64,000 nt of DNA from Nocardia asteroides (GTDB lineage: Bacteria; Actinomycetota; Actinomycetes; Mycobacteriales; Mycobacteriaceae): NCBI GenBank assembly GCA_019930625.1, contig CP082844.1:2170001-2234000 (forward strand), in the 5' to 3' direction. Numbering within the stretch: position 1 is the stretch's first letter; every line of letters starts with the position of its first letter. The notes beneath the pieces were generated by a model. It worked only from the letters and a program-made list of their open reading frames with translations. It was not told where the DNA came from and searched no databases. The position numbers and the translations under genes were made by a program. Below are positions 24,448 to 34,413 of the stretch, one piece after another.

Positions 24448-24535
24448 GGTGGCGTGTCCGAGCGGCCTAAGGAGCACGCCTCGAAAGCGTGTGAGGGGTA
24501 ACCCCCCTCCGAGGGTTCAAATCCCTCCGCCACCG
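24448..24535 (+). tRNA. tRNA-Ser (CGA anticodon), integration target
   Basis: Acceptor GGTGGCG/CGCCACC, anticodon stem ACGC/GCGT with loop CTCGAAA (CGA), long variable arm, T loop TTCAAAT. CCA is not encoded. Its 3' 24 bases are part of a 35-bp direct repeat found again at 34379-34413, so it is the attachment site of the downstream element; the gene remains intact. Confidence 0.96.
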
Positions 24536-24546
24536 CTCCAGCCCCT
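24512..24546 (+). repeat. attL: 35-bp direct repeat in tRNA-Ser 3' end
   Basis: Begins in the T arm and ends 11 bases past the tRNA; identical to 34379-34413. It is the integrase-proximal attachment site of the 9.9-kb element. Confidence 0.9.
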
Positions 24547-24575
24547 TACCTGAATCGCCAGGTAGGGGGCTTTTT
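24540..24575 (+). terminator. Rho-independent terminator after tRNA-Ser (element copy)
   Basis: AGCCCCTTACCTG pairs with CAGGTAGGGGGCT around a short loop, followed by five Ts. A related but not identical hairpin follows attR at 34407-34442, so integration replaced the tRNA terminator with an element-borne version. Confidence 0.85.
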
Positions 24576-25762
24576 CATGCCGCAGTAGCGGCAGTTTCCT
24601 CGGCCGTGGGCACATTTTGGGCACACTCGCCCGGTCCGTACGCCTGGTCAATGGCATCGGCAAGCTTGTCGAGGTCGTCGTCGAACAAGTCCGCGTAGGT
24701 GTTCAAGGTCTCTTTGGCGTCCTTGTGACCGAGCAGCCGGGCAAGCGCCAGCACGTTTGCCCCGGCCGACACAGCCAGCGACGCGCAGGTATGCCGTAGA
24801 TCGTGCGGGGTGATCGGCTGCACCTGCGCGCGCTTCACCGCACCGGTGAACCATCCGCCCTCCGTCTTCGGTCGCGGCAGGAACTTGGTCGCGTCGTCGG
24901 GATGCGGGAAGACCAGCGCGTCACCATCGCGCCCGGCGACGCGCACTGCGAGTTCGGAGAGGATGAACCGGGGGACCGGGACGCTTCGAATCTCCTTGCC
25001 CTTCGTCTGGCCCTCCGCGTGGTCGACGCCGAGCTGCACCGCGTTGTTCTCCACAGTTATGCGCCTGCGCGGGACGTCGATGTCGCGGACGCGCAGCGCG
25101 ATCAGTTCGCCCCACCGTGGCCCGCAGTAGGCGAGCATCAACACCAGGAGCCGATGTCGTCCTGCCTCATTCGCAAGCCGCTGCACGTCATCGGCATTGA
25201 GGTACACGTGCCGCTTCTTGGTCTTCGTCGGCAGCACCTTCGAGACCTGCTTGCCCCTAGCGTGATTCTTGGGAAGCAGCCGCTTCGTATCCACGGCCAT
25301 ATCCAGCATTCCCGCGAGAACACCGAACGCCCGAATGATCACGGTCGCCCCTGCGTTGATGTCCGGCTTCCCCTTCTCTGCGGCGCGTTCCTGTGCGGCC
25401 AGGCGCATATCAATCACCCACTCACGCACCGAATCTTGCGTGACATCACCGATTCGAACGTGTCCCCAATGTGGCTGTACATGGTTGCGCCAGGCCGCGT
25501 CGAGCGTCCGGAAATTGGAGGGCGCCACGCTCGCCTTCTTCTCTTTCAGCCAGTCCGGCGCCAGCTCGTCGAACGTGACCCTGCCCAGGCTCGGCGCGAC
25601 GTAGTTGCCTTCCAGTTTCGATACCTCGACCGTGTTCGCGAACCTCTCGGCGTCGACCTTGCGCCGAAAACCGCGGCGCTTCGTCTGCTTGCCACTCGGA
25701 GCGCGGTAGCGCACCATGTACCGCTTCCCGGACTGCGTTTCGTACGGCTCAATCGTCGCCAT
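24575..25762 (-). CDS. int: Tyrosine-recombinase integrase
   Basis: A 395-residue phage-type integrase. N-terminal AP2-like arm-binding domain (ETQSGKRYMVRYRAPSGKQTKRRGFRRKVDAERF), SAM-like core-binding domain (about 60-170) and catalytic domain with Arg in AYCGPRWGELIALR, HDLRHTCASLAVSAG (His and Arg), LLGHKDAKETLNTYADLF with the second His and the nucleophilic Tyr. The ATG at 25762 lies inside the last codons of the repressor gene (14-base overlap), so the two are coupled. Its 3' end is 29 bases from attL, the usual position for a tRNA-targeting integrase. Confidence 0.95.
   Translation of the reverse strand: MATIEPYETQSGKRYMVRYRAPSGKQTKRRGFRRKVDAERFANTVEVSKLEGNYVAPSLGRVTFDELAPDWLKEKKASVAPSNFRTLDAAWRNHVQPHWGHVRIGDVTQDSVREWVIDMRLAAQERAAEKGKPDINAGATVIIRAFGVLAGMLDMAVDTKRLLPKNHARGKQVSKVLPTKTKKRHVYLNADDVQRLANEAGRHRLLVLMLAYCGPRWGELIALRVRDIDVPRRRITVENNAVQLGVDHAEGQTKGKEIRSVPVPRFILSELAVRVAGRDGDALVFPHPDDATKFLPRPKTEGGWFTGAVKRAQVQPITPHDLRHTCASLAVSAGANVLALARLLGHKDAKETLNTYADLFDDDLDKLADAIDQAYGPGECAQNVPTAEETAATAA
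24605..24625 (+). repeat. Left arm-type repeat (21 bp) near attL
   Basis: A 21-bp sequence containing GGGCACATTTTGGGCACA, inside the last codons of int, repeated exactly and in the same orientation at 34266-34286. The placement inside both element ends suggests integrase or excisionase arm-binding sites. Confidence 0.6.
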
Positions 25763-26318
25763 CGCCGCGCCCTCGGCTGTACTTCTTGACGATCGCTTCG
25801 CGTTCTTCTTCGGTGCCGAAATCGAGCGCCGCGATATCAAGTAACCCCTCTGCGATCTGCTCCGCCCTCCAGAGCGGCAGTGCCTTGGCGAAAAACGAGA
25901 GCAGAGATCGCCGCTCCGCGGCCCGCTCCGCTGGCGTCTGCTCGTCTACGCGATCAACGAGGTCGACTGGCGCATCGGCTCGAAGCCAGTCCCAGAGTTG
26001 TTTGGCGGTTACTGAGTCATCCAACCCTGTTGCGGTTAAGGCTGTTTCGGAGGTTGCTCCTTGAGGATTGGGCATCAACAGGGTGATCGGGGAGACCTCT
26101 AAGGCGAGGGCAAGGGCAACTAGGTCGTCGGAATCTACACGCCGCTCTCCCTTCTCGATCCTTGACAGTCCAAGTACCGGGATGGGGCGGCCAGCAGCCT
26201 CGAGCCGCCGAGACAGGTCGGCAAACTTCAGGTTCAGCCGCTCTCTGTGAAGCCTGACGTTCTCGCGCACGGTCTCGCCCGTCGCGCCTAAAGGATTCTT
26301 CTTCTCGGTCTGCGCCAT
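25749..26318 (-). CDS. XRE-family (CI-like) repressor
   Basis: A 189-residue protein with an N-terminal helix-turn-helix (ETVRENVRLHRERLNLKFADLSRRLEA, then VLGLSRIEKGERRVDSDDLVALALAL) and a C-terminal region that is not a recognisable peptidase. The start ATG at 26318 is favoured; a longer frame to 26357 would run into an operator-like repeat. It is transcribed with int (overlapping stop/start) and divergently from the excisionase, as is usual for the master repressor of a temperate element. The candidate operators lie in 26331-26431. There is no RecA-sensitive protease motif, so derepression would need another signal. Confidence 0.8.
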   Translation of the reverse strand: MAQTEKKNPLGATGETVRENVRLHRERLNLKFADLSRRLEAAGRPIPVLGLSRIEKGERRVDSDDLVALALALEVSPITLLMPNPQGATSETALTATGLDDSVTAKQLWDWLRADAPVDLVDRVDEQTPAERAAERRSLLSFFAKALPLWRAEQIAEGLLDIAALDFGTEEEREAIVKKYSRGRGDGDD

Positions 26319-26330
26319 GGTCGGGGAGTC

Positions 26331-26431
26331 TATCAAAGTGTTGTCTCTCGAGATCATCTTGACTCATCGGCAACCGTCGGGCATCATGGCCATATCGTAA
26401 CAAAGTGATGCGATAGCACATCAAAGTGATA
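26331..26431. promoter_or_regulatory. Divergent control region with three CAAAGTG repeats
   Basis: Three copies of an A/T-CAAAGTG core lie in the same orientation: TATCAAAGTGTT at 26331, TAACAAAGTGATG at 26398 and CATCAAAGTGATA at 26418. They flank the promoters of the repressor/int and excisionase operons. They are the likely operators of the repressor. Confidence 0.6.
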
Positions 26432-26439
26432 GGAGAGCC

Positions 26440-26634
26440 ATGGATCAGGCCCTGGCTACGCCAGCCGAAGTGGCGAAGTTCCTTCGCACGACCACGGCGC
26501 GGCTGGCCAATGACAGGTATCGCGGCGTCGGAGTCCCTTACGTCAAGTACGGGCGGACCGTCATCTACAAGTGGCAGGACGTCTACGACTGGCTTGAGGC
26601 GAACACGTCCAGCACGGCGCCCGGAGCTGCCTAG
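26440..26634 (+). CDS. xis: Excisionase-like small HTH protein
   Basis: A 64-residue MerR/AlpA-type winged-helix protein: ATPAEVAKFLRTTTARLAND (helix-turn-helix), VPYVKYGRTVIYKWQDVYDWL (wing). Proteins of this size and sequence next to an integrase and repressor are excisionases or directionality factors. An AGGAGA ribosome site precedes the ATG. First gene of the rightward operon. Confidence 0.8.
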   Translation: MDQALATPAEVAKFLRTTTARLANDRYRGVGVPYVKYGRTVIYKWQDVYDWLEANTSSTAPGAA

Positions 26635-26728
26635 TGCGATTCACCGGTCATCGAAACGGAAGCGACCCGGGAGCGGGTGGAGCCGCTCACCGGGTCGAAA
26701 ACACCAATCCTCACCACAAGGAAGTGTC

Positions 26729-27301
26729 ATGAACAACTCTATCAACCCCGTCCCCCAGCCCACGTTCCGTATCGGCGACCAAATTCGGGTGCTGACATCC
26801 GGGGAACTGGCCACCGTCAAGGCGCTCACCGGGCACTCTGTTGTCGCCACCATCGAAGGGTTAGAGGACAACCTCGTCTTCAATCGCACTGAGGTGGAGG
26901 CGGCGGTACGCGCCTTACTCTGCTCCATCTGCAACGCGACCATCGGCACCATCTCTGTGCCGCTGCCGGACGTCCCGGTCAAGTGCTCGCAGTGCAGCCG
27001 GGCCGAAAGTTGCGCGTTGTTCTGCAATCTGGGCACCGGTCACCTGGACGAGATGTTCGCCGCCGACCGGGTCTGCTGGGGGCCCGACCACCTGATCCCG
27101 CTGACGCTGGAACGCCAGACCCACGCCGAGAACATCCCGGCGTGCGAGGTGTCGGCCCGGCGGCAGTGGGGCGGTCCCGATTCCGTCTACGTGTGCGCCT
27201 TGGGCGGCGACATGGACTTGACGCCCGTCGAGGCGCGGCAGTTGGCCGGGCTCCTGCTCCAAGTCGCCGAGCAGGTCGAAAACGAGGGGGTGCGGCCGTG
27301 A
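26729..27301 (+). CDS. Element protein with CxxC zinc-ribbon-like motif
   Basis: A 190-residue protein not assigned to a family. The N-terminal part (TFRIGDQIRVLTSGELATVKAL) looks like a small beta-barrel; the middle holds CSICNATIG and KCSQCSRAESC, which could bind zinc; the C-terminus (LTPVEARQLAGLLLQVAEQVE) is helical and resembles C-termini seen in actinobacterial phage and element proteins. ATG preceded by AAGGAAG. The stop overlaps the next gene's GTG. Confidence 0.65.
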   Translation: MNNSINPVPQPTFRIGDQIRVLTSGELATVKALTGHSVVATIEGLEDNLVFNRTEVEAAVRALLCSICNATIGTISVPLPDVPVKCSQCSRAESCALFCNLGTGHLDEMFAADRVCWGPDHLIPLTLERQTHAENIPACEVSARRQWGGPDSVYVCALGGDMDLTPVEARQLAGLLLQVAEQVENEGVRP

Positions 27302-27696
27302 CCGATTCGCAAGACGCGCAAAGGAGGGAAGGCGCGATGACCGCACCCGGAGGTCTCGGCGACCACGTCATGGTCGTAGGTGACGACGGATTGCCGCGCA
27401 GCGTCGTCGACATCGCCAGCATGCAGGCCCATGCAACCCGGTTGATGTACCAAATGTCGGCCGCGGCGAGCGATGACGGTGCACTTGACCGGATCGGCAC
27501 CGAATGGGCGGAAGCCCTCGACCCCGATTTCTTCGGGTACGTCGCCGCGGGTGCGTTGTCGCTGATGGCGCGCAACGTTCTGCGGCCACTGCTGGAAGTG
27601 CTCGACGCGCTCTCACCTGCACTCGGTGCCGACCTACGGGCCAAGCTGATCGAGTCGCGAGACCACGCCGAGCTGACCCTCGGAGGTGGCCGTTGA
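27298..27696 (+). CDS. Element hypothetical protein, 132 aa
   Basis: Unrecognised helical protein starting at a GTG that overlaps the previous stop (GTGA). The sequence is hydrophilic with AGALSLMARNVLRPLLEVLDALSPALGADLRAKL towards the C-terminus, and no catalytic motif is visible. Stop/start coupling on both sides places it in the excisionase-replication operon. Confidence 0.6.
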   Translation: MTDSQDAQRREGAMTAPGGLGDHVMVVGDDGLPRSVVDIASMQAHATRLMYQMSAAASDDGALDRIGTEWAEALDPDFFGYVAAGALSLMARNVLRPLLEVLDALSPALGADLRAKLIESRDHAELTLGGGR

Positions 27697-27938
27697 GTGA
27701 ACACGAAATGACCCAGGGCGCGACCGGATCGGTCGCGCCTTCGGGCGTTCCCGAAACGGAGTTGTACCAGGACAAGGCTGACGCGGCAGTTCTCGCCGCT
27801 GCGCGTGAGCGTGGATTCCGGCTCGCGGTCCGCTGCCAGCGCTGCGGGCAATGGGTTGTTGCCGCGGAGTCTGTTGCGTGGCATTTGGGTCCGGTTTGCC
27901 GTCGCAAGCTCGCGATCGACAAGGAGGCTGCCGCATGA
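27693..27938 (+). CDS. DUF6011-like small zinc-binding protein
   Basis: An 81-residue protein whose C-terminal half, RLAVRCQRCGQWVVAAESVA then LGPVCRRK, has the C-x2-C ... C layout of DUF6011 zinc-ribbon proteins, common in actinophages and plasmids. The TTG start follows GGAGG by six bases and overlaps the previous stop. It overlaps the replication gene start (ATGA). Confidence 0.65.
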   Translation: MSEHEMTQGATGSVAPSGVPETELYQDKADAAVLAAARERGFRLAVRCQRCGQWVVAAESVAWHLGPVCRRKLAIDKEAAA

Positions 27939-29962
27939 CCGATGCCTACAGTCGTCTCGTCGCCGCGCTGCGCGACCACGGTTGCATCGTCGACGACAAG
28001 GGCGATCATGGCGCAGCATCCACGCCGGGACACAGTCACCAAGACCGCGGTACGACGTTCCGCAAGACCGAGGACGGTGTTGTCGTCTACTGCCACAACG
28101 GCGACGTCGACAGGGTTCTTGCCGACCTTGGCCTGAGCAAGCCCGAGCTGTTCGATTCCCCGCGGCCGCGCTACCAGTACCCGGACGGCCGGATCGTGGA
28201 GCGCCGATACCGCGACGGTCGCAAGACGTTCCATCAGTCCGGGAACAAGGTCGGTACCGCGTTGTTCGGGTCCGATCGTCTGCCGGAGAACCGTGGTGTG
28301 CCGGTGCTGGTCGTCGAAGGCGAGAAGGACGTGATCGCCGCCCAGTCGGTCGACGCGTTCGCAGTCAGCCAAGCCCAGGGCGCGAGCACACCGCCGGACA
28401 AAGCGGATTGGTCCCCGCTGCGCGGCCGCCCGGTGCTCGTCGTCGCCGACAAGGACGGCCCAGGGCGTGAGCGCGCCGAGAAGGTAGCCGCACATTTGGC
28501 AGGCATCGCCGCCCGGGTGACGGTGACCCAGGCGAAGAACGGCAACGATCTGGCCGACCATATCGCCGCCGGTCACGATGTGGGAGACCTGGTCGTGCTG
28601 GCAGAGGTTCGACCGCCGCGGCGGTTGGTTGTAACCCGCGGCTCGGAGGTGAAAACCAAGCGAGTGCGGTGGGTCGACCAGGATTGGATGCCGGAGGGCT
28701 CGCTCGTACTGCTGGCTGGTCGCGAGGGCCTGGGCAAGTCCACCATCGCGTGCGAGAAGTGCGCTCGGGTGACGCGCGGCGAACTTGAGGGGGAATGGTT
28801 CGGGCAACCGCGCAATGTGCTGTACCTGCACACCGAGGATGCCCGAGAGTTCACCGTCGCGCCGCGGCTGCGTGCCGCGGGTGCCGATATGGATCGCGTG
28901 TTGTTCGTGGACGTGCAGACCGAGCACAGCGATACCGGGACGCTGATTCTGCCTGCCGATGTCGGCGCGCTCGAGGATCTGGTGGTGGAGCATGAGGTGT
29001 CGCTCATCGTGCTCGACGCCGCGACATCGGCCATGTCCTCGGAGCTGTCGGGCAAGGACGATCGGCAGGTGCGCCAGTTCCTCGAGCCGCTGGCCCAGCT
29101 CGCCGCGCGCCGCGGGTGCGTGGTGCTCGGGCTGTGCCACTTCGGCAAGCGCGACGGCAGCGACACCGGCAAGTTGATCCTTGGGTCCATCGCGTGGTCT
29201 CAGGTGGCCCGGTCGGTGCTGTCGGTCGCCAAGGACGAGGAGTCCGGCAACCTGATCGTCACCAACACCAAGGCGAATTTGGCGCCGCGGGTGCGCTCGA
29301 TGGAAGCAGTGATCGAATCCGCGACCATCCCCACCGAGGACGGCACGGCCGATGTCGGGGTGCTGCGGTGGCTTGGCGAATCCGAGCGTGACGCCCGGGA
29401 ATTGCTCGCCGGAGACGAAGCCCCGGATGCCGAGGAGCGCACGGCTGCCGAAGCATGGCTGGAGGACTACCTCACTCAGCACGGCCAGACCGCTGCGAAG
29501 ATCGTCAAGGCGGAGGCACGCAAGCAAGGACTGTCGGACGCCACGATCAAACGCGCCGCGAAATCGATCGGTGTCGCCTACGAAATCACGGGGTTCCCAC
29601 GCACATCTGTGTGGCGACTCCAGTCGGCTCAGTCGGATCAGGGCACACATACACGTGAGCCGAATGAGCCCACTGAGCCAACTGGGCGCGACCAGCACAA
29701 ACACAGTGAGCCCACTGAGCGGAAACTCCAGTCGGCTCACGCTCCCGTGAATGAGCCCACTGGTGAACCGACTGAGTCGGCACCGCCCGTCCGCACTCCG
29801 GGCCGCATGGTCGGGCAGTGGCTCGGATCGGGTGAACCCGTCGCCACGGTCACCCCGTTGACCCTCGCCCGCCACACCGAACACCAACACCGCACACGTG
29901 TCCGGAAACGCACACGCGGCGGCCGTCCGATCGAGAGTGGAGGGACCGGTGAACCCGCATGA
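27935..29962 (+). CDS. Replication protein with TOPRIM and RecA-like ATPase domains
   Basis: A 675-residue primase/helicase-type protein. Residues 120-210 form a TOPRIM-like domain (VLVVEGEKDVIAAQ and VLVVADKDGPG); residues 250-430 form a RecA-fold ATPase with Walker A GREGLGKST near 262, LYLHTEDA and Walker B LIVLDAATSAMS. An N-terminal stretch (TFRKTEDGVVVYCHNGD) resembles the degenerate zinc region of phage primases. The C-terminus (about 550-650) is a low-complexity EPTEPT-rich tail whose DNA contains direct repeats. AAGGAGG precedes the ATG, which overlaps the upstream stop. It probably initiates replication of the excised element. Confidence 0.85.
   Translation: MTDAYSRLVAALRDHGCIVDDKGDHGAASTPGHSHQDRGTTFRKTEDGVVVYCHNGDVDRVLADLGLSKPELFDSPRPRYQYPDGRIVERRYRDGRKTFHQSGNKVGTALFGSDRLPENRGVPVLVVEGEKDVIAAQSVDAFAVSQAQGASTPPDKADWSPLRGRPVLVVADKDGPGRERAEKVAAHLAGIAARVTVTQAKNGNDLADHIAAGHDVGDLVVLAEVRPPRRLVVTRGSEVKTKRVRWVDQDWMPEGSLVLLAGREGLGKSTIACEKCARVTRGELEGEWFGQPRNVLYLHTEDAREFTVAPRLRAAGADMDRVLFVDVQTEHSDTGTLILPADVGALEDLVVEHEVSLIVLDAATSAMSSELSGKDDRQVRQFLEPLAQLAARRGCVVLGLCHFGKRDGSDTGKLILGSIAWSQVARSVLSVAKDEESGNLIVTNTKANLAPRVRSMEAVIESATIPTEDGTADVGVLRWLGESERDARELLAGDEAPDAEERTAAEAWLEDYLTQHGQTAAKIVKAEARKQGLSDATIKRAAKSIGVAYEITGFPRTSVWRLQSAQSDQGTHTREPNEPTEPTGRDQHKHSEPTERKLQSAHAPVNEPTGEPTESAPPVRTPGRMVGQWLGSGEPVATVTPLTLARHTEHQHRTRVRKRTRGGRPIESGGTGEPA
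29617..29770 (+). repeat. Iteron-like direct repeats inside the rep 3' end
   Basis: ACTCCAGTCGGCTCA occurs at 29617 and 29725. TGAGCCCACTGAGC occurs at 29665 and 29707, with a partial copy at 29752. The repeats encode the EPTEPT tail of the replication protein, but exact nucleotide repetition suggests initiator-binding iterons, as in phage origins lying within initiator genes. Confidence 0.55.
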
Positions 29963-30068
29963 CCGACACCCCGGGGGAGGTAACCCCATATTCGCCAACC
30001 GCACCCCTCGGGATAGGCGGGTTTCTCTCCCCGGCGTTTTTTCCACAGCACACCGACGGGGGTGAGCG

Positions 30069-30443
30069 ATGACCGTCGAACCTTGCGTCATCACCTCCGG
30101 CGGTGTCGTCGTGCTGACTGGGACCGCGGTCCACGATGTTGCCCACCTCATCGGGGAAGGCATCATCCGCCGTCGCGGTACCGGTCGCGCGATCCCTGCC
30201 CGGTACCTCCAGCTCCGCGACACCCTCACCGCGGCCGCCGCGACGATGGCGCGTCACCACGACACCGACCCGGCGACAACCCCCGGCGAAGGCGAGACGC
30301 TGGACTCGCTCACTTCCACGGCTGAGCTCGCCGAGACGCTCGGTTGCAGCCTGCGCACCGCGCAGCGACGCGCCGAGCGGCTCGGCGGTCAAAAGATCGG
30401 AGGGAAATGGATAGTCCCGAAACCGGCGACTCCGGCGGCCTGA
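30069..30443 (+). CDS. HTH DNA-binding protein of the element
   Basis: A 124-residue protein. The C-terminal STAELAETLGCSLRTAQRRA followed by LGGQKIGGKWIVP is a helix-turn-helix with wing, as in excisionases and MerR-like regulators. The N-terminal half (VITSGGVVVLTGTAVHDVAHL) is conserved in style among actinophage proteins but has no known role. It starts 106 bases after rep. Could be a second regulator or replication accessory factor. Confidence 0.65.
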   Translation: MTVEPCVITSGGVVVLTGTAVHDVAHLIGEGIIRRRGTGRAIPARYLQLRDTLTAAAATMARHHDTDPATTPGEGETLDSLTSTAELAETLGCSLRTAQRRAERLGGQKIGGKWIVPKPATPAA

Positions 30444-30628
30444 TCGACCTTCTCGCCGGACTCGACGACAACACCGCAAAACAGCTCATCGTCCAATCCC
30501 GGCAACGCCGAGCCGAATCCGTCCGGCGGCAAGCCGTCGACAGCTTGGCCGAACTGTTCGACCGCACCGAACAGGCCACACGCGAATTCGCCGCCGAACT
30601 CGAACAGGGCAAGGAGAACAACCGGTGA
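30407..30628 (+). CDS. Small charged helical protein, 73 aa
   Basis: Unrecognised; begins inside the previous gene's last 37 bases with GGAGGG just upstream of the ATG. The sequence (LIDLLAGLDDNTAKQLIVQS, RQAVDSLAELFDRTEQATRE) is strongly helical and could form a coiled coil. It overlaps the next gene's GTG start by four bases (GTGA). Confidence 0.55.
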   Translation: MDSPETGDSGGLIDLLAGLDDNTAKQLIVQSRQRRAESVRRQAVDSLAELFDRTEQATREFAAELEQGKENNR

Positions 30629-31464
30629 TCACCCTCAACACCAACCCCCGCGCCAGCATCCGCGCCGAAGCCGTCATCCGCCAATTCGGCGCCACCCACC
30701 CCGAGGACGTGACACGGCTCGCCGACACCCTCGCCGCCGCGGCACGGATCCCCGCCGACTACGCCGTCGACTACCGCGCCGTTGCCGCCGCCATGGGGAA
30801 CACACCACCCTCGGAATGGGACGCGCTACTCGCCGACGCCGCGGCACGCGAAGCCAAGCACGCGGCAGCGCAAGCCGTCATCGGCGCCGGGTTGAAATCC
30901 AGCCTCATCGCCAGCCTGGACGCGACCGTCACCAGCAACCTCGACCACTACCTTGCCCAACTCACCAACCACCTCGACACCGCCGAGCGGACCCTCGTCG
31001 AGCACGCTGCCCGCGTACCCAACCTCGACCCACAGCACGCCGTTGACCACGGGTACGGCGACAGCCTCACCGCTGTGTACACCGCAGCACGCACTATCAG
31101 CCTGATCGCCAGCGTCCTGCCCACACCACCGAGCGGTACACCACAGGCAGCCACGTGGCTCGAGCCACCAGCCGATGCCGGCCACGTCATCCTCGACGCT
31201 CACGCGCTCAGTGACCGCATCATCAACGGCGAGACAGGACAGCTCGGTCGCGCGGCACAGAACCTCGTGCACCACATCAAGCAGGACCCGAACAACACCG
31301 TGCTCGCCATCGCACGCGGACAGCACAACGGGTTCCGCATCCACGTGCCCCGCAGCCTCGCCGAGACGCGAGCACGCTACGCGCATTGGGCAGACATCAA
31401 CCGCACCATCCGTGACACCGACACGAGCAGCAACCGTCGCGGCAAGCGCGTCACGCTGATCTGA
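30625..31464 (+). CDS. Element hypothetical protein, 279 aa
   Basis: Unrecognised, mostly helical protein without membrane segments or clear catalytic motif. It contains DHYLAQLTNHLDTAERTLVE and a C-terminal basic tail (NRRGKRVTL). Arginine-rich basic tails are common in nucleic-acid-binding proteins. GTG start coupled to the upstream stop. Good codon bias supports it as real. Confidence 0.65.
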   Translation: MITLNTNPRASIRAEAVIRQFGATHPEDVTRLADTLAAAARIPADYAVDYRAVAAAMGNTPPSEWDALLADAAAREAKHAAAQAVIGAGLKSSLIASLDATVTSNLDHYLAQLTNHLDTAERTLVEHAARVPNLDPQHAVDHGYGDSLTAVYTAARTISLIASVLPTPPSGTPQAATWLEPPADAGHVILDAHALSDRIINGETGQLGRAAQNLVHHIKQDPNNTVLAIARGQHNGFRIHVPRSLAETRARYAHWADINRTIRDTDTSSNRRGKRVTLI

Positions 31465-31566
31465 CCCAGGCGGGTATACCCCCTCGGGGGTAGCGAAGCC
31501 CGCCCGGTAGGCATAGGGCCTGACTGTCCGTGCAGTGCAACGGGGATTACCGGAAGGAGGTAGGTG

Positions 31567-31821
31567 GTGGCCCGTATGAAGGATCCGCAGGGTGCCCGGC
31601 CGCCTGTCCGTGCGTTCGCCCCCGGCGAGCTGGCGCGCATTCGTGAGTTGATCGAGGCGTCCCCGGCTCGGCAGCATCCGTCGCCGATCGGTTCGGAGCT
31701 GGACCGGATTCACGCTGCGGCTGGTCGACAGCGCGGGTTCAAGCTCTGGGAGCTGGATCCGGTGACCGACGTCGGTGCTGCCCTTGCCGAAGAGATCTCC
31801 GATCGGAGGTGGAGCGAATGA
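31567..31821 (+). CDS. Small element protein, 84 aa
   Basis: A short helical protein (FAPGELARIRELIEASP, LDRIHAAAGRQRGF) with a strong AGGAGGT ribosome site; GTG at 31567 or 31564 is possible. The stop overlaps the ATG of the terminase-like gene (ATGA), so the two are coupled. The function is not recognised. Confidence 0.6.
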   Translation: MARMKDPQGARPPVRAFAPGELARIRELIEASPARQHPSPIGSELDRIHAAAGRQRGFKLWELDPVTDVGAALAEEISDRRWSE

Positions 31822-32147
31822 AGCCGTCGACCGCGCTGCGCAAGCGCATGGACGCCGCTCTGGCGCCGGGCCATGAATGGACCGAACACGAAGAGGAGTA
31901 CCTCACTCTCGCCGGGCGTGCGGCCGACCGCGCCGAGGTCGTGCAAGACCAGTTGGACGCCGAGCTGTCGCGCGATGAGCCCCGACCGAACTCGGTGGTG
32001 CGGCTGTCGGCGGAGTTGCGCGCGCTGGAGCGTGCACAGGCGGATTTGCTGGCTCGGTTGAACCCCGCCGCGGAGGGCGCCGCGAAGTCGGAACGTCATC
32101 AGCGCGCCGCCCTGGTCCGCTGGGACCGCGAGCGGCACCGCGGCTAG
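31818..32147 (+). CDS. Terminase small-subunit-like protein
   Basis: A 109-residue protein resembling small proteins beside actinophage large terminases: acidic helical start (HEWTEHEEEYLTLAGRAADR, then EVVQDQLDAEL), central NSVVRLSAELRALERAQADLLARL, and a basic C-terminus KSERHQRAALVRWDRER that is frequent in these proteins. If it is a small terminase it would recognise DNA for packaging. No large terminase, portal or capsid gene follows, so packaging would need a helper phage, as in PICI satellites. The family link is by eye. Confidence 0.5.
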   Translation: MKPSTALRKRMDAALAPGHEWTEHEEEYLTLAGRAADRAEVVQDQLDAELSRDEPRPNSVVRLSAELRALERAQADLLARLNPAAEGAAKSERHQRAALVRWDRERHRG

Positions 32148-32422
32148 CCGGATGGGTAGGGGGAGTACCCCTCGCCGTGACGGGCGCTGCACCTGCGGGG
32201 AGGGCGCTCGGGGATGCGGAGAGTTCAAAATGGGCGACTCGGGGCCAGCGTGCCGACGTCGGCAAAATCGCTGGTACCCGCCGGAACTCGGGCGGGAGTC
32301 CGACTCCCTCGCAACGGCGGAACCGGGGGTACTCGAAGATGAGGACCCCCGGCTGAAAGTGCGAAAATTCCGCACTTTTCGGAGCGCCTCTGTCACGTGA
32401 CGCAACCGGCGGAGGTGGTTGG
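32148..32422. other. Intergenic region at the convergence of two element operons
   Basis: No gene seen. A perfect 8-bp hairpin AAAGTGCG/CGCACTTT lies at 32356-32378 with Ts after it and probably terminates transcription from the left-hand operon. Confidence 0.4.
32356..32379 (+). terminator. Hairpin terminator, AAAGTGCG/CGCACTTT
   Basis: Perfect 8-bp stem with a seven-base AT-rich loop, followed by TTT. It sits between the convergent element operons. Confidence 0.5.
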
Positions 32423-32608
32423 TTACGCGATGTCGTCGTCTTGCCGGTCCAGCAGATCATGTGCCCGGTCGATCGCCTCGTCTTCGAGGATCTCCGCGTG
32501 CTCTTCGGGCGTGCGCGGCCAACCGTCCGGGCCGACGTATTGCGGGGTGCCATCGGCATCGAACCCGCGGAACCGGAGTGCATCATCGTCCGGCCTGGCT
32601 GCGTTCAC
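32423..32608 (-). CDS. Small acidic protein, 61 aa
   Basis: Unrecognised protein: LRFRGFDADGTPQYVGPDGWPRT-type N-terminus followed by an acidic helix (HAEILEDEAIDRAHDLLDRQ). Its GTG overlaps the stop of the membrane-protein gene upstream (GTGA), which supports both as a two-gene operon. Confidence 0.6.
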   Translation of the reverse strand: MNAARPDDDALRFRGFDADGTPQYVGPDGWPRTPEEHAEILEDEAIDRAHDLLDRQDDDIA

Positions 32609-32916
32609 CTCAGCGCCTTCGCGGGCCTCACGAGACCAGCCTCGACGAGCACCCGGAACGCAGCCGCCTTGCAGTCGCAGCGCTCGGCATCGCACCTAAT
32701 GAGCTTCTGCATGACGATCCGGGCCTGAGCGACAGTGAAGGGCACCACCGGCGCTGGGTGGCAGGCGTATTCGAGGCGATCGGCTGGCTTAGCCTCGATT
32801 GAGGCTGAATCAGGATCGCCGCGTTCGATCAGCCACGGCAGCACCCAGAACAGGAGTAGCAGCATCCCGACGACGGCGGCTACGACGATCAGTACGACTG
32901 CGAGTTCTTCGGGCAT
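32605..32916 (-). CDS. Small single-span membrane protein with Cys cluster, 103 aa
   Basis: The N-terminus holds one transmembrane helix (VVLIVVAAVVGMLLLLFWVL), followed by a cytoplasmic tail with CDAERCDCKAAA, a possible metal or redox site, and a helical AFRVLVEAGL segment. It is coupled to the 61-aa gene downstream. Together they form a leftward operon at the right side of the element, where PICI-like elements usually carry accessory or anti-phage cargo. The function is unknown. Confidence 0.6.
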   Translation of the reverse strand: MPEELAVVLIVVAAVVGMLLLLFWVLPWLIERGDPDSASIEAKPADRLEYACHPAPVVPFTVAQARIVMQKLIRCDAERCDCKAAAFRVLVEAGLVRPAKALR

Positions 32917-33066
32917 CTCGATACCCCCGGGCGCGTTGTGGTGTGTTGGGTAGCACCCGACGCCGGGGAGTTCGGGGGCTCATCCCGGCGTCGGGGCCTG
33001 CCAAAAACGTTCGCGTACGGCAAGATCACCGAGGGACAGTGAGGGGACAGCGAGCCGCGATCGATC

Positions 33067-33072
33067 TACCCT
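33067..33072 (+). promoter_or_regulatory. -10 box of leaderless promoter (XRE/TPR gene)
   Basis: TACCCT, six bases, then ATG at 33079. Confidence 0.6.
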
Positions 33073-33078
33073 CGGGAC

Positions 33079-34239
33079 ATGAGCGACAGCGTGGGGCAGC
33101 GGATCGCATCCGAACGCAAGATTGCCGGGCTGAGCCAACGGGCGCTGGCCTCCCGGGCCGCCTACAGCCTGAGCATGGTGAAGGCGGTGGAGCAAGGGCG
33201 GGAGCCTGCTTCTCCTGGCTTCATCTCGGCGGTAGCGCGTGCTCTACGGATCACCCCAGAGCAGTTGACCGGCGCCCCCTACGACGATGGAAAGCCGCTA
33301 TCCGATGCGGTCAACGAACTGTCGGTGCTCTTGACCGAGGGTCGGTACGCCCGCGCGGTCGACCCCGGTCCGCTGCCACAGCTCGAGGCCGACCTCTCGG
33401 CCGCGCAACTGCTGTACCGCCGCGACCGGACACGGCAGACCATCGCGGCATTACCGGGCATCATCCGCCGATTGCACGGCGCCGTGCGCGAGCTGTCCGG
33501 CGACGAGCAGGCACGCGCCTACACGATGCTGACGGCCGCGTACGTGCTCGCGGAGTGGTCGGCCCGGCGAACCGGGCACCTTCTGCTCACGCTGCCCGCG
33601 CTGGACCTGGCCGACACCTATGCGCCGCTGGCCGATGATCGCAACTGGGGTGCGTTCTCCGTCCTGGCACGGGCACGAGTCCTCACTCACTATGGAGAAT
33701 CGGAGGTCGCCGGCCAACTCATCGACACGGCGATTTCTACTGCCGACGAGACTCGGCCGGGGCTGATCCTGGGCGGGTACTCGCACCTTGCCGGGGCGGT
33801 GAACGAGGCACGGAAGCTGAACCACACGGCCGCGGTCGACCACATCAGCGCCGCGCGCGAGATTGCGGCCCGCACCGGCGAAACCGACCTGTACATGGTC
33901 GACTTCGGGCCACTGAACACCGAGATCCACTCTCACGCCGTCGAGCTCGAATCCGGCGACCCGAACCGGGCCGCGATTGAAGGCGCCGAACTGGCGTACT
34001 CGGTCGGAGCGCCGCCGACCCGGATAGGGCATCACTGGCAGGACAACGCCCGCGCGTGGTTGATGTCGGGCAAGCCGGACAAGGCCCTGGTTGCGTTGAA
34101 CAAGGCCCGCGCTGCGGCGCCGCAGCAGACCCGCTTGCACCCGGGGGTACGGGAGACGGTTCACGGGATCGCGGCGGCGCAGCGGCGGCAGAGTGAGGGC
34201 CTGGTGGGGTTCGCGTCATGGCTCGGTACGACGCTGTGA
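33079..34239 (+). CDS. XRE-family regulator with TPR-like C-terminal domain
   Basis: A 386-residue regulator: N-terminal helix-turn-helix (GQRIASERKIAGLSQRALAS, then LSMVKAVEQGREPASPGFIS) and a long helical repeat region (about 110-380) with TPR-like units (ALDLADTYAPLADDRN, KALVALNKARAAAP). This form is very common in streptomycetes and nocardiae, often as a signal-dependent regulator; peptide or protein ligands are suspected. It is the last gene before attR, with its own leaderless promoter. It could regulate element functions or be host-affecting cargo. Confidence 0.8.
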   Translation: MSDSVGQRIASERKIAGLSQRALASRAAYSLSMVKAVEQGREPASPGFISAVARALRITPEQLTGAPYDDGKPLSDAVNELSVLLTEGRYARAVDPGPLPQLEADLSAAQLLYRRDRTRQTIAALPGIIRRLHGAVRELSGDEQARAYTMLTAAYVLAEWSARRTGHLLLTLPALDLADTYAPLADDRNWGAFSVLARARVLTHYGESEVAGQLIDTAISTADETRPGLILGGYSHLAGAVNEARKLNHTAAVDHISAAREIAARTGETDLYMVDFGPLNTEIHSHAVELESGDPNRAAIEGAELAYSVGAPPTRIGHHWQDNARAWLMSGKPDKALVALNKARAAAPQQTRLHPGVRETVHGIAAAQRRQSEGLVGFASWLGTTL

Positions 34240-34265
34240 CCTGATCCCCGCTCAGGGCATCTCGA

Positions 34266-34286
34266 CGTGGGCACATTTTGGGCACA
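34266..34286 (+). repeat. Right arm-type repeat (21 bp) near attR
   Basis: Exact copy, same orientation, of 24605-24625; the GGGCACA at its end is followed by AGTGCCC, making a local palindrome. Probable integrase/excisionase arm site. Confidence 0.6.
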
Positions 34287-34368
34287 AGTGCCCGTGATTT
34301 AGGGTGATTTGGAGTTAGTTACAGAGATGTGTTTTCGCAGATCAAAGCAGGCTTGAGGGCCTGGCCAG

Positions 34369-34402
34369 GGTGGCGGAAAGGGTTCAAATCCCTCCGCCAC
34401 CG
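34369..34402 (+). other. tRNA-Ser minihelix remnant overlapping attR
   Basis: GGTGGCGG, the 5' acceptor strand of tRNA-Ser(CGA), is followed after two bases by the complete T arm and 3' acceptor. The D, anticodon and variable arms are missing. It folds as an acceptor/T-arm minihelix. Confidence 0.6.
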
Positions 34403-34413
34403 CTCCAGCCCCT
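34379..34413 (+). repeat. attR: 35-bp direct repeat
   Basis: Identical to 24512-24546. Marks the right boundary of the integrated element. Confidence 0.9.

Follow-up and report, generated by a model that had tools for sequence, protein, structure and literature searches.

The window analyzed here, a 64,000-nucleotide stretch of Nocardia asteroides DNA (contig CP082844.1), contains at 24512..34413 an element that we consider, with a probability of roughly 0.8, to be an apparently intact integrative phage satellite organized like a phage-inducible chromosomal island (PICI). The sequence basis of this reading is an integrase with a 35-bp insertion at tRNA-Ser(CGA) and arm sites, a divergent repressor/HTH switch, a replication protein (Rep) with iterons, a terminase small subunit (TerS) unaccompanied by recognizable genes for large terminase (TerL), capsid, tail or lysis, and the existence of a family of elements built alike. 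The element is real, probably intact, and probably part of a modular actinobacterial group. A PICI-like organization is supported by its sequence, whereas PICI by descent goes beyond the comparison made. For the group as a whole, the balance tips slightly toward a large set of Mycobacteriales satellites, with plasmid kin in Streptomyces and without a name that we found in print, in which a single int-XRE-xis-Rep chassis is combined with three kinds of virion takeover: TerS alone, an own tape measure protein yielding chimeric tails, or an own capsid.

Organization of the element and its integration site

The original prediction of a complete 9.9-kb element holds: 9,902 bp, both repeats counted, lie between exact 35-bp direct repeats at tRNA-Ser(CGA). 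The int and XRE genes run leftward; rightward follow the genes for an HTH (xis-like) protein, a CxxC protein, the 27337 protein, a DUF6011 protein, Rep and a second HTH protein, three small or otherwise unknown genes and the 31818 gene, to the right of which are a small leftward pair and a rightward XRE/TPR regulator. The features are as follows:

24448..24536, +, tRNA-Ser(CGA), integration target, whole at the left end (ARAGORN)
24512..24546, attL core, 35 bp, exact direct repeat, same as attR
24575..25765, -, tyrosine integrase (PF00589, E 8e-20; phrog_1, E 1e-64)
24606..24625, +, putative left arm-type site GTGGGCACATTTTGGGCACA, within the 3′ end of int
25749..26318, -, XRE-family repressor, adjoining int and likewise leftward (HTH_31, E 9e-5, sub-threshold; phrog_11503, E 6e-26)
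26440..26634, +, small HTH protein, divergently oriented to the repressor and placed like an excisionase (HTH_17, E 0.022; phrog_2528, E 4e-7, no function assigned)
26729..27301, +, CxxC (zinc-ribbon-like) protein, common to several related elements (no family above cut-off)
27337..27696, +, g5, 119 aa, 49-83% identity in five tape-measure-type relatives
27708..27938, +, DUF6011 protein (PF19474, 32.1 bits against a cut-off of 26.6)
27935..29962, +, Rep, AAA_25 (PF13481, E 2e-39) with a Toprim-like stretch (Toprim_3, E 3e-4, below cut-off)
29621..29774 (154 bp), nine iterons TGAGCCNACTG, 0-1 mismatch each, within the 3′ end of rep, candidate origin
30069..30443, +, HTH2 protein, also in TerS/tape-measure relatives
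30407..30628, +, g9, small protein
30625..31464, +, g10, 279-aa orphan lying between HTH2 and TerS, good coding signal
31576..31821, +, g11, small protein, overlapping the start of terS
31818..32147, +, most likely TerS (family-level comparison)
32423..32608, -, m1, small protein
32605..32916, -, m2, small protein, hydrophobic N-terminus, kept near the right end of relatives
33079..34239, +, XRE regulator, marginal TPR matches (HTH_31, E 3e-9; phrog_5823, E 4e-56)
34267..34286, +, putative right arm-type site, same as the left one
34379..34413, attR core, 35 bp, exact direct repeat

The 35-bp repeat overlaps the 3′ part of tRNA-Ser(CGA), and its right copy holds the tRNA tail alone, so that the intact tRNA gene is on the left side. 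A terminator-like hairpin can be read after each copy of the repeat; the present tRNA-Ser hairpin is therefore element-borne, and the original one sits past attR. When the two flanks were joined (322 nt), four of the 59 Nocardia genomes (G038, G025, G007 and G051) matched this query without interruption across 320-322 nt, at 88-92%; in G005 the flank halves match 170 bp apart, this site being empty too with a diverged middle, and in the window's own genome the two parts of the query lie 10 kb from each other. In the other 53 genomes the best match covers part of the query and is uninformative in either direction. The paired 20-bp repeats, which the original prediction does not mention, can be read as integrase arm sites. 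An exact copy of the sequence occurs in three related loci (L047, L049 and L050), the latter two having a second copy with four mismatches near the opposite end, and L051 and L065 carry it near both ends with four mismatches; as a control, 1.09 Mb of shuffled sequence, scanned on one strand, gave one such match.

The gene order is as originally predicted, with int and repressor leftward and xis and rep rightward, the label xis reflecting position and a weak HTH match. The DUF6011 assignment also held, its frame being open though absent from the gene caller's output. For the presumed XRE/TPR regulator the XRE part is sound and the TPR repeats are marginal (E 0.076), and the membrane nature of the 32605-32916 product was judged from its sequence. 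Pfam and PHROG scans of 15 element proteins revealed no structural, lysis or conjugation family above cut-off, in line with the prediction; this includes capsid, portal, TerL and tape measure families as well as FtsK/TraSA-type, relaxase, partition and other transfer families. A role in defense was considered and set aside, since PADLOC, run on 10 of the 15 proteins, returned domain-level matches only, for Rep and the regulator. The g10 protein had no relative but itself among the 7,998 best word-sharing database candidates scored, and a fragment of it is found elsewhere in the same genome. Relatives also have proteins in the HTH2-TerS interval (20 candidates besides that of the window); a model from eight aligned sequences (pLDDT 67) gave no outstanding fold match, and g10 could not be linked to this group (hhalign probability at most 9).

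Rep also matches the primase families phrog_10729 and phrog_239. The origin-like repeats near it are real: nine copies of TGAGCCNACTG fall within the 3′ end of rep, and the whole window contains 12, against a mean of 4.07 and a maximum of 10 in 100 shuffles and a background of 0.78 per 10 kb in other loci. L052 and L053, whose Rep proteins match at 81-82% (443 and 422 residues, respectively), likewise have nine copies, spaced identically give or take 1 bp, a likeness that may come in part from the common coding sequence. Other repeated 10-mers, in 3-4 copies against at most two in 20 shuffles, occur at or just past the equivalent rep end in L048, L050, L051, L063 and L065, and similarly near the rep end in L056; L055 does not exceed its shuffles. 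The 10-mer scan alone did not flag the degenerate iterons of the window, which were found by a degenerate-pattern search.

The probable terminase small subunit and exchange of virion modules

The product of the 31818 gene, originally described as terminase-small-like, is by sequence most likely a TerS. Comparison of its family profile with 120 TerS proteins gave a probability of 90%, and in L130 and L133, both prophage-like loci, kin of the protein lie directly upstream of genes for large terminase and portal. Two of 37 family members match TerS PHROGs directly, which the window protein itself does not. A weaker line of support is that, among 988 solved chains compared, the two best were HK97 TerS. 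Family scans and tblastn against phages gave nothing useful for the protein alone, and a profile search of solved structures produced three matches, none a terminase, at E 0.14 or worse; the case for TerS thus comes from family-level comparison, single-sequence searches being uninformative. Two database members of the family are mycobacterial.

Relatives were collected both through Rep, as those with long matches (L015-L020), and through TerS, and were taken with their flanking DNA. The TerS set consists of 14 places, 23 of 28 non-Nocardia places and L065, repeated loci being counted once (L049/L069/L131, L045/L064, L046/L068 and L048/L066). Among these 38 loci, 18 have no gene labeled as capsid or tape measure, 10 show a tape measure only, 7 a capsid only and 1 both (L118, apparently two adjacent elements), and 2 are prophage-like. 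The labels derive from profiles seeded on Nocardia loci, plus one capsid and one tape measure, with "scaffold" denoting position only; several loci (e.g., L115, L119 and L138) are at contig ends, beyond which genes are unseen, and L112 and L139 overlap. The TerS-like frames of L124 and L128 were not called by the gene caller, and that of L063 is a family member though unlabeled.

Repeat-bounded elements with the order int-XRE-xis-rep-HTH2-terS also occur at tRNA-Leu (L055, 10.2 kb), tRNA-Asn (L063, 9.5 kb) and tRNA-Ser (L065, 10.9 kb). Repeat-bounded members, that is those with a visible long direct repeat, range from 7.8 to 14.8 kb (n = 18, the window element included).

Tape measure genes encoding 937-1646 residues are present without a labeled capsid gene in the Nocardia loci L045, L046, L048, L049, L053, L057 and L129, and the same pattern is seen in other Mycobacteriales (L120, L123, L137 and L138) and in an IMG/VR contig (L070). 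Three of the proteins match tail tape measure families strongly (L045, E 1e-126; L048, E 3e-135; L057, E 3e-155), and the remainder were labeled by kinship profile or, for L137, by Pfam. The tape measure of L048 shares 38% identity with its counterparts in Nocardia phage NTR1 and Skermania phage SPI1, the matches spanning 56-60% of the L048 protein; ten further proteins of this 14.4-kb element, located at tRNA-Arg, were scanned without a structural match. Such loci are candidate chimeric-tail satellites. In a tree of 34 TerS proteins the four classes (none, tape measure, capsid and prophage) are mixed at chance level, with 16 changes against 16.6 in shuffles, so that TerS lineage is no predictor of the virion module: the related elements have a chassis in common, and the virion module is exchanged.

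As a separate observation, a TIR/SEFIR-domain gene beside the TerS-family gene of L125 (8679-9671) is possibly a satellite-borne defense gene.

Interpretation and comparison with described satellites

By analogy with PICIs, as described in PMC6092414, the XRE repressor would keep the element quiescent until a helper phage lifts repression, whereupon Int and the small HTH protein would excise it and Rep would amplify it from the iterons. TerS would then mark the satellite DNA and recruit the large terminase of the helper, causing this DNA to be packed in helper particles. The g10 protein and the small gene products are candidates for fitting a 10-kb genome to the capsid, by small capsids or concatemers, or for blocking the helper. 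Every step that requires a living helper is least certain. The tape-measure relatives make dependence of the family on a tailed phage likely, by analogy with PLE satellites.

That the element is instead an integrating plasmid-like replicon, with terS as a passenger and no satellite lifestyle, we regard as improbable. It does have an apparent iteron origin of its own, and Rep shares 34-36% identity with its counterparts on two circular Streptomyces plasmids; those same plasmids, however, bear tape-measure-like genes, which points back to phage particles. Furthermore, a capsid or tape measure gene is near the TerS-family gene in 18 of 38 loci, and no partition or transfer family was detected in the 15 proteins. 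The plasmids themselves (CP108844.1, L151; NZ_CP058979.1, L152) are circular, of about 22 kb, and encode a related Rep, ParA, an integrase and the tape-measure-like gene (L151 8306-12391, PHROG E 1e-11; L152 17359-22284, own profile E 1e-18). They are possible satellite plasmids.

A defective prophage that has lost its structural genes and retained int, repressor, rep and terS is marginally less probable still. The genes are phage-like, and kin of terS are found in the prophage-like loci L130 and L133, yet terS stands here without terL, the arm sites and iterons are intact, the same gene order recurs in repeat-bounded elements of like size (L055, L063 and L065), and the strong Rep matches L050, L051 and L053 sit in small repeat-bounded elements. 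The original prediction had held open that homologues always occur inside full prophages; only 2 of the 38 TerS-family loci are prophage-like and 18 have no labeled capsid or tape measure gene, for which reason a deletion remnant is unlikely. The other case it gave as refuting, a 31818 protein without kinship to terminases, is likewise contradicted by the family-level comparison. An actinomycete integrative conjugative element (AICE) or mobilizable element shares the tRNA integration, tyrosine integrase, Rep and actinobacterial host, and is very improbable given that the hallmark TraSA-type FtsK translocase, the absence of which was correctly predicted, and relaxase and other transfer families are missing from the 15 proteins.

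The satellite reading agrees with the PICI layout given in PMC6092414: int and repressor leftward, xis and rep rightward, and no structural or lytic genes. In the window element the regulators are divergent, with xis assigned by position and a weak HTH match. The published layout also has an origin after pri/rep, a place that the iterons, a candidate origin, would fit. The criteria in that text include a size of about 12-15 kb and unique att sites never held by prophages; the window element measures 9.9 kb and its repeat-bounded relatives 7.8-14.8 kb. PICIs of Gram-positive cocci of the TerS-carrying SaPI type, as described there, have the same gene order, an origin by rep and, in some, TerS. 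By comparison, the window element is actinobacterial and smaller, has an AAA/Toprim Rep with iterons in the 3′ end of its gene, and adds DUF6011, CxxC, g5, HTH2 and TPR genes; the likeness supported here is one of organization.

The best-known packaging-redirecting satellites are those of Firmicutes, Proteobacteria and Vibrio. The original view of actinobacterial satellites as poorly described should be softened, as PMC10654092 and PMC10690885 are already in print, and the published actinobacterial candidates in the texts seen carry capsid genes. PMC10654092 takes integration machinery together with a major capsid gene as the definition of mycobacterial candidate PICIs, including phiRv1 and phiRv2. 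These are likewise small integrated Mycobacteriales elements, whereas the window element has no capsid gene, and elements like it would escape such a definition; the window TerS family is found close to capsid genes in seven related loci. The Streptomyces satellites in PMC10690885 (capsid-forming PICIs, Mulch/Flayer) have their own capsids and no primase homologues. L051, with TerL, capsid and portal-like genes, resembles these actinobacterial capsid-bearing satellites, whereas the window element encodes an AAA/Toprim Rep and, of the capsid-forming hallmark (own capsid, portal and terminases), lacks recognizable capsid, portal and TerL genes. PMC10023795 suggests that prophage-like elements of Actinobacteria smaller than 15 kb could be satellites. 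No description of the window element was found in publications on satellites of Actinobacteria, Nocardia and Mycobacterium or on tape measures, a search whose scope left out most subscription papers.

In PLE satellites of Vibrio cholerae a satellite tape measure protein displaces that of the phage, giving chimeric tails, and a tail chaperone is also encoded (PMC12987554). According to this 2026 paper, tape measure proteins had gone unreported in any other satellite, and predicted tmp genes occur in other putative satellites, including capsid-forming PICIs (Extended Data Fig. 10 legend). Kin of the window element are PLE-like in encoding a tape measure, with no other tail gene recognized among the ten proteins scanned in L048; unlike the PLEs described, the window element has no tape measure of its own, no tail chaperone was recognized, and host and gene content differ. 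The tape-measure members bear on the question of that paper, namely the breadth of tail takeover, which, if our reading is true, would be widespread and independently repeated in Actinobacteria. The window element and its kin provide a capsid-less set that has TerS, candidate origins and att sites that are defined, and the related elements allow packaging and tail takeover to be compared.

Other elements at tRNA-Ser(CGA) and in the same genome

In Nocardia, tRNA-Ser(CGA) is a hot spot for small elements (L050, L051, L052, L065 and L067) with kindred integrases and different virion modules. L051 possesses TerL and capsid genes by PHROG and a portal-like gene, L050 and L067 a capsid gene, and L065, from N. 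panacis, TerS with neither capsid nor tape measure labeled. The occupancy of att sites, which in PICIs are never prophage-held, was viewed at these loci and a few other sites. A 6.8-kb island bounded by a 27-bp repeat (L158 630-7470) occupies the same tRNA-Ser and has no labeled integrase gene.

A resident helper phage in the window genome is unlikely; no phrog_9 large terminase was found there, other terminase families not having been searched. The same genome carries, near 2828 kb (G000:C1; L044 9289-12847), an incomplete second copy of the element's right half comprising the end of g10, g11, TerS (90%), m1, m2 and the TPR gene. At G000:C1:3517411-3527442 (L154 4412-14443) it also contains a capsid-type satellite-like element of 10.0 kb between 27-bp repeats, which holds the only PF05065 capsid match in the genome; a gene a few kb away is presumably smpB.

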